A stretch of DNA of 45,383 bases from Alphaproteobacteria bacterium (GTDB taxonomy: Bacteria > Pseudomonadota > Alphaproteobacteria > GCA-2731375): contig JAJFGG010000034.1 of NCBI GenBank assembly GCA_021776235.1, positions 1-45,383 of the forward strand, written 5' to 3'. This document shows, one piece after another, positions 11,075 through 42,692 of this stretch. Numbering within the stretch: position 1 is the first letter of the stretch; each line of letters opens with the position of its first letter. Below the pieces are notes generated by a model. The model was not told the origin of the DNA. It worked only from the letters and a program-made list of their open reading frames with translations, and made no database searches. A program made the translations under genes and the position numbers.

Positions 11075-11965
11075 ATGACTGACAAAGCTATCAGCCCCTT
11101 GCGCCAGCGCATGATCGAGGACATGACGGTCCGGGGATTTACGCCGGGCACGCAGCGAGGATACCTTACAGCGGTCACGAATTTCACCAAATTTCTTGGC
11201 CGCTCACCGGACCAGGCGGCGGCCGATGACCTGCGGCGTTTTCAACTGGAGATGCGAACGAACGGGGCCTCGGCGACGACCATGAACGCCGCCGTCTCGG
11301 CCCTGCGGTTTTTCTTCGGCGTGAGCCTGGGCCGGGGCGATGCGAACGTCGGCATGACCACGGTGCGCGAGCCACGCAGGCTGCCGGTTATTCTAAGCCC
11401 CGAGGAGGTGGCGCGTCTGCTGGATGCAGCACCAGGGCTGAAGCACCGAGCGGCGCTGTCGGTGGCCTATGGTGCCGGACTGCGGGCAGCGGAGATCGTC
11501 TCACTCAAGCCCTCGGACATTGACAGCGACCGCATGGTGATCCGGGTCGAGCAGGGAAAAGGCCGCAAGGACCGTTACGCCAAACTTTCCGACCCCTTGC
11601 TCGATATCTTGCGGGCCTGGTGGCGGGAAGGGCACGAGCGTGGCAAGATGCTGCCTGGAGGCTGGCTGTTTCCCGGCCAGAACCCGGTCAATCCCCTGAC
11701 CACGCGGCAATTGAACCGGGCCTTCCATGGTGCCAGGGAGGCCGCCGGCATCGACAGGCCCGTTTCCCTGCATACGCTTCGCCACTGCTTTGCCACGCAT
11801 CTGCTGGAACAGAAGGTCGATATCCGGCTGATCCAGGTGCTGTTGGGTCACCGCAAGCTCGACACCACGGCGCGCTATAGCCACGTCGATAGCTCCACCT
11901 TGCGTGCCGTCAAGAGCCCGCTGGAGTTGCTGAGGGCCAAGGGCAGGAAAAAGAAGGCTCCATAA
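11075..11965 (+). CDS. Tyrosine recombinase (IS91-associated integrase)
   Basis: This 296-residue protein starts at ATG 11075 after an AGGAG site. The N-terminal SAM-like core-binding domain (about residues 10-95, with FTPGTQRGYLTAVTNFTKFL) is followed by the catalytic domain. The active-site residues are all present: R137 in GAGLRAAEIV, H233 and R236 in HTLRHCFATH, H259 in LLGHRKLDTT and the nucleophile Y268. The length and N-terminus resemble the integrase-like proteins carried by many IS91 elements, whose exact role in transposition is not settled. The gene is followed 12 bases later by the transposase gene, so the two are probably co-transcribed. Both look intact. Confidence 0.93.
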   Translation: MTDKAISPLRQRMIEDMTVRGFTPGTQRGYLTAVTNFTKFLGRSPDQAAADDLRRFQLEMRTNGASATTMNAAVSALRFFFGVSLGRGDANVGMTTVREPRRLPVILSPEEVARLLDAAPGLKHRAALSVAYGAGLRAAEIVSLKPSDIDSDRMVIRVEQGKGRKDRYAKLSDPLLDILRAWWREGHERGKMLPGGWLFPGQNPVNPLTTRQLNRAFHGAREAAGIDRPVSLHTLRHCFATHLLEQKVDIRLIQVLLGHRKLDTTARYSHVDSSTLRAVKSPLELLRAKGRKKKAP

Positions 11966-11977
11966 AGACCGGGCGTC

Positions 11978-13204
11978 GTGTCGCAAAAGAGACCGGGGGA
12001 AAGGCTGGAGGTCGCGGATATCTTCCGTGACCACGGTCCCGCCTGGCGCAAGGCCAGGGCCGGCCATCTGAGCCTCGGCCAGCTCAAGGCAATGTCGGCC
12101 ATCGAGTGCTGCCGCACGGCGGCGCTCGGCGGCCACGTGGCAGCCTGCCAGGATTGCGGCCACAGCCATATCGCCTACAATTCCTGCCGCAACCGCCATT
12201 GCCCCAAGTGTCAGGGCGCTGCTGCCAAGGAATGGCTGGCGGCGCGAGGGGCCGAGCTGTTGCAGGTGCCCTACTTCCACCTGGTCTTCACGCTGCCCAA
12301 ACCGATCAGTGACATTGCCTACCAGAACAAGGCCGTGGTTTACGACATCCTGTTCAAAACCGCTGCCCGAACCCTGATTGCCGTCGCCGCCAACCCGAAG
12401 CATCTCGGTGCCCGTATCGGCTTCACCGCCGTGCTCCATACCTGGGGCTCGGCAATGACCCATCATCCCCACCTGCATATCATCGCACCCGGCGGCGGCA
12501 TCTCGCCCGATGGCAAGAGCTGGATACCTTGCCGGCCAAACTTCTTTCTGCACGTGCGCGTGCTATCGAAACTGTTCCAGCGATTGTTCCTGGAGACCCT
12601 CACCGCTGCTCAGGTGGCCGGGCGCCTGCACTTCTTCAACGATCTGGCACATCTGTCCGAGCCAGATGCCTTCGCCGCGTACCTCGCGCCATGGCATGAC
12701 AGGGACTGGGTCGTCTACGCCAAAAAACCTTTCGCCGGACCCAGGACGGTACTCGCCTATCTCTCCCGTTACACCCACCGTGTCGCCATCTCGAACAGCC
12801 GCCTGATCAGCTGCGATGAGCGCGGCGTCGTCTTCAGGTACAAGGATTATCGGCGCAAAGGCCGCGAGAGATACACGACCATGACCCTGACATCGGATGA
12901 GTTCATCCACCGTTTTCTACTCCATGTACTGCCCAGCAGGTTCCACCGCATTCGCTATTATGGCCTGCTCGCCAACGGCCACCGCACCCACAACATCGCC
13001 CTGGCCCGAGATCTTCTTGGCCAACTGCTTGATGGGCCGACAATCTTGAGCGAGCCTGTCAGGGCCGCCGATGATGAGCCAGTTGAAGCGTCATCCCCAG
13101 CCTATCCATGTCCCGCTTGCGGCGGCGTCATGGTGATCATTGAACGCTTCGAAGCCGGCGCCCAGCCGCGTGCGCCGCCACCAACAAAGGCCGTGGCAGC
13201 ATGA
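11978..13204 (+). CDS. IS91-family Y2 HUH transposase
   Basis: This 408-residue protein starts at GTG 11978. The N-terminal zinc-binding region has the pattern CQDCG, then CRNRHCPKCQ (about residues 55-80). The HUH metal site is the HPHLH motif with H165 and H167. Two candidate nucleophilic tyrosines, Y261 and Y265, lie in YLSRYTHR with the Y-x3-Y spacing of IS91 proper, whereas the ISCR branch has only one. A second cysteine pair near the C-terminus (CPACG) may form a further zinc site. The enzyme nicks single-stranded DNA for rolling-circle transposition. The reading frame is complete, so the element may be active. Confidence 0.95.
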   Translation: MSQKRPGERLEVADIFRDHGPAWRKARAGHLSLGQLKAMSAIECCRTAALGGHVAACQDCGHSHIAYNSCRNRHCPKCQGAAAKEWLAARGAELLQVPYFHLVFTLPKPISDIAYQNKAVVYDILFKTAARTLIAVAANPKHLGARIGFTAVLHTWGSAMTHHPHLHIIAPGGGISPDGKSWIPCRPNFFLHVRVLSKLFQRLFLETLTAAQVAGRLHFFNDLAHLSEPDAFAAYLAPWHDRDWVVYAKKPFAGPRTVLAYLSRYTHRVAISNSRLISCDERGVVFRYKDYRRKGRERYTTMTLTSDEFIHRFLLHVLPSRFHRIRYYGLLANGHRTHNIALARDLLGQLLDGPTILSEPVRAADDEPVEASSPAYPCPACGGVMVIIERFEAGAQPRAPPPTKAVAA

Positions 13205-13545: not shown

Positions 13546-13991
13546 CTTAACACGAAGAGACCGTTAGGGTTTTCTGATGTTACGCCCGGAGTTGGGGGCA
13601 TGGCAGAAGAGGCCGATCGTATGCACAGCGCGCCGCCGCCGCTATTTGCGCTGTAATGCACGAGGTCCGAGAACGGTGTGGCGTTCGACTGGGGCATGGG
13701 TGGAAGGTCGTGCGCGGGGGGGGGCTGGAGCGGTATTGCTGTGTTGCGGGCTGGTTGGATTTGAGACGCCAGGCTTGAGCGTCGTCGTATTTGCTTCGGG
13801 ATGCGAAGCTTCGTTTTCGAAGGCAAACTCTCTGTCACGGTGACGGGGTCGTTACCGGCGCACTTCGATTGTATAGACGCAGCCTTCCGGGATTTGTCCC
13901 CGACGCTTGCGGTTTTCTGGTTCTGGATAATATTTGCCGGTGACAGGCTTGTATGGGACACTGCCGACAGGTTTCAAACGAGGAGCATGCA
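13546..13991. other. Non-coding stretch between IS91 element and OsmC gene
   Basis: About 445 bases contain no recognisable gene on either strand. A run of nine G at 13716-13724 is the only oddity. A 169-residue open frame on the minus strand spans this stretch and the IS91 end, but it has no protein-like character. The last bases hold the AGGAG site at 13981-13985 for the OsmC gene. Confidence 0.4.
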
Positions 13992-14432
13992 ATGGCTGAA
14001 CCGGCTCTGGCCTATCAAGCAAGTTGTTACAGCATCGGCGTCGCTGGCCGGTCGGTTTGCAACGCACGCAATCATCATTGGGTCGCCGAGAACACCGGCG
14101 GTGAAGCGGTCGGTGCGGGCGAGCTGTTTTGCGCCTCCATCGCCGCCTGCGCGGTGAATATGGTCGAGACAATCGCCAGCACCGAAAAACGCGCCCTCGA
14201 TGGCATGGAAGTCAATGTCGCGGCCTACCGGGATTTCGACAAGCCCGGCGGTGATCTCTCGCTGTATGACGAGGTGCGCATAAATTTCCAGATGTGGGGC
14301 GTGAGCGATGACGATGCGCGCTTCCTGGTCAAGACGTGGAAGCAACGCTGACCCATCTATGGTTCAGTCGCCGTGGCGACTGCAGACACCATTGTGGACT
14401 TTACCGCCCAGGCTACAGCGCGGCCTAGGTGA
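13992..14432 (+). CDS. OsmC-family peroxidase-like selenoprotein (in-frame TGA read as Sec120)
   Basis: The start is ATG 13992, six bases after AGGAG (13981-13985). The first 119 residues are an OsmC/Ohr-fold protein with the usual first active-site cysteine, C53, in GELFCASIAACAVNM. At 14349-14351 the frame meets TGA exactly where the family has its second active-site cysteine (KQR-C-P). Beyond it the same frame continues with PIYGSVAVATADTIVDF and ends at TGA 14430-14432. The total of 146 residues matches the family's usual length of about 140. The 67-residue spacing between C53 and position 120 fits the cysteine spacing in E. coli OsmC (59 and 125). A hairpin with SECIS geometry follows the TGA. 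Family members reduce organic hydroperoxides in the cytoplasm; in Ohr the first cysteine is peroxidatic and the second resolving. Reading to 14351 only would give a truncated 119-residue product lacking half the active site. Confidence 0.85.
14349..14382 (+). promoter_or_regulatory. Sec-coding TGA and putative bacterial SECIS hairpin
   Basis: TGA (14349-14351) is followed by CAGTCGCC at 14365-14372, GT, then GGCGACTG at 14375-14382. This is a perfect stem, practically 7 bp closed by a CGTG tetraloop. The apical loop begins 21 bases after the TGA, inside the 16-37 base window of bacterial SECIS elements, and has G as its second base, as the consensus requires. The hairpin also encodes SVAVATA, so it is conserved coding sequence at the same time. 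SelB binding is inferred. Confidence 0.75.
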
Positions 14433-41234: not shown

Positions 41235-42692
41235 CTATTGATCGACCCCGCCGATGCACAGGTACTTGATCTCCACATAATCATCGATGCCGTATTTGGA
41301 GCCTTCCCGGCCCAGACCGGACTCCTTCATGCCGCCGAACGGGGCCACTTCGGTGGAAATGATGCCGGTGTTGATGCCGACGATGCCGTATTCCACGCCC
41401 TCGGAGACACGCCAGATGCGGCCGATGTCGCGGGCATAGAAATACGCGGCCAGGCCGAATTCCGTGTCGTTGGCCATGGCAATGGCCTCTGCCTCGTCCC
41501 TAAAGCGGAAGATCGGCGCCATGGGGCCGAAGGTCTCTTCCTTCGCGACCGCCATCTCGGGCGTGACGTCGGCGACGATGGTCGGTTGGAAAAAATTGCC
41601 GCCCAATTCGTGGCGGCCGCCGCCGACCACCACCCGGGCGCCCTTGGCCAGGGCGTCGGCGATATGCTCCTCGGTCTTGGCGACGGCGTTTTGATCAATC
41701 AGCGGGCCGATGACGACGCCATCGTCCACGCCACTGCCTACCTGCATGGCGGCGACGGCCGTGGCCAGTTTGTCCAGAAAGGCGTCATAAACATTGTCCT
41801 GCACCAACAGGCGGTTGGCGCAGACACAGGTTTGCCCGGCATTGCGGTACTTCGAGGCCATGGCGCCTTCCACCGCCGCATCCAGGTCGGCATCGTCAAA
41901 GACGATAAAGGGCGCGTTGCCGCCCAGTTCCATGGTCGCCTTTTTCACCGTATCGGCGCATTTCTTCATGAGCACCTTGCCGACTTCGGTGGAGCCGGTG
42001 AAGGTCAGTTTCCGCACGATCGGGTTTGCCGTCATCTCGTCGCCAATCTCGGCCGAGGCGCCGGCCAGAACCGAGATGACGCCCGCCGGCATGCCGGCCC
42101 GCTCGCTCAATTCGGCCAGGGCCAGGGCCGAGAACGGCGTCTGGCTGGCCGGTTTGACCACCATGGTGCAACCGGCGGCCAGCGCCGGGCCAACCTTGCG
42201 GGTGATCATGGCGGCGGGGAAGTTCCAGGGCGTAACGGCGCAACAAACCCCGATGGGTTCCTTCAGCACCACGATACGCTTGTCCGCCTGATGCGCCGGA
42301 ATGGTGTCGCCATACAGCCGCTTGCCCTCTTCCGCGAACCATTCGATGAAAGATGCGGCATAGGCGATCTCGCCCTTGGACTCGGCCAGGGGTTTGCCCT
42401 GTTCCAGGGTCATGATCAAGGCCAGATCGTCCACATGTTCGTGCATCAGGTTGAACCAGCGGCGCAGGATTTTGGCCCGCTCGCCCGCGGTCAGGGCCCG
42501 CCACGGGCCCAGGGCCTCGTTGGCCGCCTCGATCGCCCGGCGGGTTTCCGCCCGGCCCATGCGCGGAACGGTGCCAATGATCTCGCCCGTGGCCGGGTTA
42601 TCGACCTCGATTACACCACCGCCGTCGGCATCGCACCAGGCGCCAGCGATATAGTTCTGTTGACGAAACAGTTTTGCATCGTTGAGGTTCAT
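41235..42692 (-). CDS. gabD: Succinate-semialdehyde dehydrogenase family aldehyde dehydrogenase
   Basis: This 485-residue protein starts at ATG 42692 after AGGGAG. Aldehyde dehydrogenase motifs are complete: AVTPWNFPAAMITRK, FTGSTEVGKVLM, the general-base glutamate in MELGGNAPF, and the nucleophile cysteine in GQTCVCANR (about residue 287). GMKESGLGREGSKYGIDDY near the end is typical of GabD. It oxidises succinate semialdehyde to succinate with NAD(P)+, though relatives such as glutarate-semialdehyde dehydrogenase look very similar. It lies 37 bases downstream of the thioesterase gene and is probably co-transcribed with it. Confidence 0.9.
   Translation of the reverse strand: MNLNDAKLFRQQNYIAGAWCDADGGGVIEVDNPATGEIIGTVPRMGRAETRRAIEAANEALGPWRALTAGERAKILRRWFNLMHEHVDDLALIMTLEQGKPLAESKGEIAYAASFIEWFAEEGKRLYGDTIPAHQADKRIVVLKEPIGVCCAVTPWNFPAAMITRKVGPALAAGCTMVVKPASQTPFSALALAELSERAGMPAGVISVLAGASAEIGDEMTANPIVRKLTFTGSTEVGKVLMKKCADTVKKATMELGGNAPFIVFDDADLDAAVEGAMASKYRNAGQTCVCANRLLVQDNVYDAFLDKLATAVAAMQVGSGVDDGVVIGPLIDQNAVAKTEEHIADALAKGARVVVGGGRHELGGNFFQPTIVADVTPEMAVAKEETFGPMAPIFRFRDEAEAIAMANDTEFGLAAYFYARDIGRIWRVSEGVEYGIVGINTGIISTEVAPFGGMKESGLGREGSKYGIDDYVEIKYLCIGGVDQ

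Follow-up and report, generated by a model that had tools for sequence, protein, structure and literature searches.

A probable OsmC-fold selenoprotein of an alphaproteobacterium with an in-frame TGA codon at the second active-site cysteine position

The window, that is, the whole stretch of DNA analysed here, comprises 45,383 nt of an Alphaproteobacteria bacterium (GCA-2731375 lineage; assembly GCA_021776235.1, contig JAJFGG010000034.1). An open reading frame on its forward strand (13992-14432) reads M...KQR-TGA-PIYGSVAVATADTIVDFTAQATARPR-TGA, in which the first TGA (14349-14351) is codon 120. This codon is in frame with the ATG at 13992 and is preceded by 119 residues and followed by 26 more until the TGA at 14430-14432, as a sequence-only reading of the locus had described when it placed the codon at the second active-site cysteine of an OsmC-type protein. 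Gene calling with the standard code would end the protein at residue 119. The Pfam OsmC model (PF02566; gathering cut-off 27.5) scores the read-through protein at 40.5 bits versus 28.9 for the protein cut at the TGA. The features of the locus are the following:

13980..13985, + strand: probable Shine-Dalgarno-like GAGGAG, 6 nt upstream of the ATG, from sequence reading
13992..14432, + strand: putative OsmC-fold selenoprotein gene, 146 residues, predicted Sec at 120, stop TGA at 14430-14432
14058..14060, + strand: Cys23, in a column invariant in 59 aligned proteins
14121..14123, + strand: Glu44, invariant, one column after the Ohr catalytic Glu by sequence alignment
14148..14150, + strand: Cys53 (TGC), the retained first cysteine, at the Ohr 'peroxidatic' position; invariant in 59/59 and aligned with the first Ohr Cys
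14349..14351, + strand: predicted Sec codon TGA, residue 120, the second cysteine, at the Ohr 'resolving' position; aligned with the second Ohr Cys, and in relatives 56/60 TGA and 4 Cys
14365..14382, + strand: SECIS-type hairpin, seven core pairs (14366-14372 with 14375-14381) plus an outer pair (14365 with 14382)

Relatives were sought in a genome collection in which each species is represented once, starting from peptides of the window protein; the 61 loci obtained are therefore biased to close relatives, and Cys-coding ones may have been missed. The alphaproteobacterial and Chloroflexota loci among them all come from metagenome-assembled genomes. The codon in question is reached in 60 of the loci (in L080 the contig ends before it), and it is TGA in 56, TGT in two and TGC in two. 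Two further loci, L044 with unknown residues and L081 with a broken upstream frame, were kept in this count and left out of the alignment and tree. Sixteen of the TGA loci have alphaproteobacterial record titles and 40 Chloroflexota ones (Chloroflexi, Dehalococcoidia, SAR202); by the same criterion, the four Cys loci are assigned to Aminicenantes, Acidobacteria or Acidobacteriota (two) and Proteobacteria. In the unrooted tree the Cys sequences are all found on one side of a single branch (support 78/85). The frame of the TGA loci runs on for 24 to 32 residues (n=56) to a final stop, which is TAA or TAG in 50 and TGA in six, as it also is in the window. Comparison thus reveals an exchange of TGA and cysteine codons in one column, the pattern expected of a Sec/Cys exchange. 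The TGA differs by one base from TGC or TGT and could, from the window alone, be a misread cysteine codon or one mutated in a pseudogene; however, this is refuted by the 56 of 60 loci in other assemblies that share the TGA and by the covariation of the hairpin described below, and its probability is now negligible.

The TGA might instead be a true stop, the 119-residue form being the functional protein and the remainder only rarely read through. The truncated protein does just pass the Pfam OsmC cut-off, and free variation is seen in the final portion of the tail made by read-through. Against this, the residues directly after the TGA are conserved in relatives: P121, Y123, G124, A127, A129, T130, T133 and V135 are invariant in the 59 aligned proteins. 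The same holds for W116, K117 and R119 ahead of the codon and, further upstream, for R20, C23, R26, E44 and C53, with position 120 being invariant save for its Sec/Cys exchange. The four Cys-coding relatives translate the region beyond residue 120 without any stop, and in the AlphaFold2 model this region forms one helix and one strand. When the 15 alphaproteobacterial relatives are compared to the window, codons 1-10 after the TGA show 31 silent changes and no replacement, whereas in codons 11-23 replacements (59) are almost as numerous as silent changes (65); the far tail is therefore only loosely kept. A true stop is thus very improbable. The retention of the other cysteine, also claimed from the sequence alone, holds throughout the alignment (Cys53, 59/59). 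Cys23 is a third cysteine conserved in all 59 members, located near the loop which bears the catalytic Arg in Ohr.

The hairpin noticed in the initial reading, CAGTCGCC-GT-GGCGACTG (14365-14382), is indeed perfectly paired; it starts 13 nt after the TGA, and its GU tip (14373-14374) lies 21 nt after it. The SECIS criterion as worded in PMC1088965 includes a small apical loop with a G, and the hairpin is a stem-loop of this type just downstream of the codon, with a small G-containing apical loop. Its folding energy as a single sequence is unexceptional (z -1.38; 15 of 200 shuffles were as low), and support for it comes, therefore, from comparison. Of the seven core pairs, six are formed in every one of the 57 TGA sequences (the window among them) and the loop-closing seventh in 56; the outermost eighth pair is formed in only 25. 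At the outer core pair, 42 sequences have GC, 14 have AU and one has CG, the Ser and Thr codons involved changing only silently. A further core pair shows CG in 56 sequences and UA in one, and the GU tip is closed by CG in 53 and by AU in three, the closing pair being broken in one. For a covariation test, 33 of the 57 sequences were picked by hand. Cells in which both sides of a pair had changed numbered 18 in this selection, compared with 5.4 in shuffles (none of 500 as high), and sliding the partner strand by one to three columns left zero doubly changed cells; the count of further pair types in the same 33 sequences was no higher than chance (142 of 500 shuffles as high).

Codon third positions yield a congruent picture. 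After the TGA their entropy is 0.87-1.31 bits for codons 1-4, 0.92 for codons 5 and 10, 0.13-0.37 for codons 6-9 and 1.13-1.89 for codons 11-18. Measured against the 15 alphaproteobacterial sequences, the rate of silent change per codon is lower in the hairpin (0.156) than ahead of the TGA (0.28) or in codons 11-23 (0.33). The inner stem is kept in the four loci with a Cys codon, of which one forms the outer core pair and one the tip pair. Judged by these comparisons, the RNA of the hairpin is under selection beyond the protein code, the signature of a recoding site, and chance is excluded as the source of the combined TGA and hairpin pattern.

The protein was modeled using AlphaFold2 with moderate confidence (mean pLDDT 82.6, pTM 0.80), residues 26-37 falling below 50. 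Structural matches are headed by OsmC and Ohr (Foldseek best 9.6e-05, TM 0.59; Z up to 11.6), which assigns the predicted fold to this group; structures of the unrelated S-adenosylmethionine synthetase (Z 9) rank below the OsmC rows and were set aside. The two cysteines of Ohr have been termed peroxidatic and resolving, and roles in catalysis are described for its Arg and Glu (PMC5962072). Alignment of the family profile with the Ohr sequence pairs Cys53 and residue 120 with both Ohr cysteines, which agrees with the placement of selenocysteine at the Ohr resolving position in the sequence-only reading. In Pseudomonas aeruginosa Ohr the catalytic Arg is presumably that of GGRDG; on the sequence alignment R20 falls three columns later than this Arg, and E44 one column later than the Glu of PEQLF. 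Since the Arg and Glu of the Ohr triad are not matched column for column, Ohr chemistry serves as a lead and not as a finding. A peroxidase role, such as that of the hydroperoxide reductase suggested initially, is plausible.

Of the sel genes that the sequence-only reading proposed to look for, selA, selB and selD are all present in the genome. The selB gene was recognized as a match of 329.6 bits and a further segment of 82.7 bits, in one frame of 673 codons (414.3 together), with selA directly upstream (583.9 bits; cut-off 267.9), and selD (381.6 bits) possesses an in-frame TGA of its own, GGG-U-GSKIAP. Of 40 genomes of relatives, 38 have a selB above its cut-off. All four carriers of the Cys form are among these, three of them with a match limited to the first 345 of the 581 positions in the stretch concerned. 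The selC gene, whose absence the sequence-only reading had listed among the refuting outcomes, fared otherwise: no tRNA-Sec was found in the draft genome (174 contigs, completeness 98.4%) using the Rfam model, a strict pattern, a relaxed pattern or a genus-mate sequence, though it is present in 10 of the 10 genus mates searched (66-73 bits). The Rfam search of the draft scored 150 of 914 first-look candidates; two hits over the cut-off are tRNA-Ser according to ARAGORN. The possibility of a tRNA-Sec nested within selB was considered following PMC8124441, and neither ARAGORN nor Rfam found one in the selB region of this genome. In all seven genus mates tested, ARAGORN calls tRNA-Sec(tca). Judging from equal coordinates, loci L022, L024 and L026 seem to belong to the genomes of genus mates G004, G007 and G002, respectively, so that the OsmC selenoprotein gene and tRNA-Sec would co-occur in the genus.

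The alternative raised by these data is that the family is a selenoprotein elsewhere and that this genome has lost its tRNA-Sec, the TGA being a stop here and the protein truncated. None of the searches of the genome recovered the tRNA, and its surroundings are in line with a loss. A thiolase gene adjoins tRNA-Sec in five of the 10 genus-mate loci; in this genome the same thiolase lies inside a contig without tRNA-Sec, and a contig gap at that place is therefore not the explanation. After the thiolase comes a 267-bp segment with inverted ends (L142 2780-3046, equal to contig C68 19623-19889), which likewise holds no tRNA-Sec, and the other flank of the tRNA matches a second place in the genome, again without a tRNA. 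Nevertheless, selA, selB and the TGA-containing selD are intact, the hairpin in the window is perfect and identical to that of the nearest relatives (L022-L026), the assembly is a draft of 174 contigs at the stated completeness, and only part of the Rfam candidates was scored. Loss of the tRNA is consequently an improbable account, albeit the least improbable of the three alternatives.

Taken with the TGA/Cys column, the conserved residues after the codon and the covarying hairpin, the presence of selA, selB and selD supports the selenoprotein reading first advanced from the sequence. Residue 120, the second active-site cysteine position, is on this comparative evidence almost certainly selenocysteine. 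With high confidence, the gene would encode an OsmC-fold selenoprotein whose UGA is read as Sec by means of SelB and the hairpin, and in which Cys53 and Sec120 form a redox pair. For the insertion of Sec, the redox pair, the substrate, the reductant and the attacking residue we infer the following course. SelB carrying Sec-tRNA would bind the hairpin 13 nt past the codon, such that the UGA at 14349-14351 is decoded as selenocysteine and a protein of 146 residues is made; the fold suggests that Cys53 and Sec120 act together in it. The substrate would most likely be an organic or lipid hydroperoxide, or else a disulfide-like compound. The reaction would pass through a Cys53-Sec120 selenenylsulfide, which a cellular thiol would re-reduce, the corresponding role being that of a lipoylated protein in Ohr. 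As for the order of the two residues, we lean slightly toward attack by Sec120 with Cys53 resolving, rather than the resolving role for Sec120 implied by the Ohr position.

An OsmC-like selenoprotein from marine metagenomes had been mentioned in the initial reading. Such a protein does exist, but its motif is UxxT (PMC1088965) and its Sec occupies the first cysteine, so that it represents a different family. One OsmC-like selenoprotein, with this motif, is given in the available text of PMC1088965, PMC2398784, PMC9312934 and PMC13188914, the first two of these being the Sargasso Sea and GOS surveys. In PMC7435645 an OsmC-like protein is merely named in a table, PMC2673044 names Ohr/OsmC as a redox family, and OsmC is absent from the main text, as available, of Deep-Sep (PMC12013277). 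No description of Sec at the second OsmC position was found in the literature searched, which lay outside subscription papers and preprints.

The NCBIfam model NF041052 (OsmC_like_Se) presumably describes the surveys' UxxT family, judging from the motif. It is exceeded in 13 of the 57 genomes searched, all of them reached via Chloroflexota loci holding the second-position gene, with a total of 15 hits over the cut-off, each with one TGA. Thirteen of these were given as loci and read on both strands, and eight were aligned. In 13 of 13 read, the first position, with its TGA, reads FUEMT, and the second position is a Cys in NGCW or NGCY; the U is seven residues downstream of a Phe, the same spacing as between F46 and Cys53 in the window protein. 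The UxxT loci (L155-L167) lie in Chloroflexota genomes which also carry the second-position gene, with two copies each in G320 and G332. The window protein scores 17.0 bits against NF041052, where 95 are needed, and its own genome has no match to the model at 0.001. Weak matches occur in 49 of the 59 members (best E 3.4e-06), from which the two families appear to be distant kin. Profile-profile comparison, with thin profiles, gave a probability of 1.1% while pairing both redox columns; the Sec position in NF041052 is taken from the direct reading of the 13 loci and not from this comparison. Both families thus share the OsmC fold, two redox positions and a Sec specified by TGA, whereas their arrangement is reversed: Sec first and Cys second in NF041052/UxxT, Cys53 first and Sec120 second in the window family.

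The relationship to the remaining OsmC-type families is more distant. Pfam OsmC is matched by each of the 59 aligned members (E <= 0.01), and the NCBIfam search found no model whose cut-off the window protein passes. Ohr (TIGR03561; 1N2F, 9JX6) shares with it the fold and both aligned cysteine positions; however, the resolving Cys of Ohr is replaced by the predicted Sec, the Ohr Arg and Glu are off-column, and the score of 21.7 bits is far under the cut-off of 88.85. A second NCBIfam Ohr comparison gives 18.5 of the 240 required. OsmC peroxidase proper (TIGR03562; E. coli 1NYE and 1QWI) has the same fold (Z about 10), whereas identity in the structural match is 13%, and even a weak match to TIGR03562 occurs in just one of the 59 members.

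These findings would add a selenoprotein family of alphaproteobacteria and Chloroflexota (SAR202, Dehalococcoidia). Together with the UxxT family, Sec is predicted at either redox position of one fold, and in the same genomes, which makes the choice of position directly testable. Whether the new family has an inverted OsmC active site, in which Sec at the Ohr-resolving position attacks, Cys53 resolves and Sec was acquired separately, is in our estimate evenly balanced. Some Chloroflexota carry both mirror-image selenoproteins, from which it may be surmised that selenium entered each redox position of the fold separately; if so, the two proteins constitute a natural test of the role of each position.

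With regard to gene surroundings, none of the 25 largest neighbour clusters listed contains an alphaproteobacterial locus; these clusters therefore offer no functional link across phyla and no pointer to the substrate. Approximately 0.8 kb upstream of the gene, a phage-integrase-type recombinase adjoins an IS91-type transposase (Y2_Tnp, Zn_Tnp_IS91; window 11075-13204). Elsewhere in the window, Rhodo-rpoB of Rfam is weakly matched on the minus strand at 41546-41640, with 34 bits where the gathering score is 33.6.
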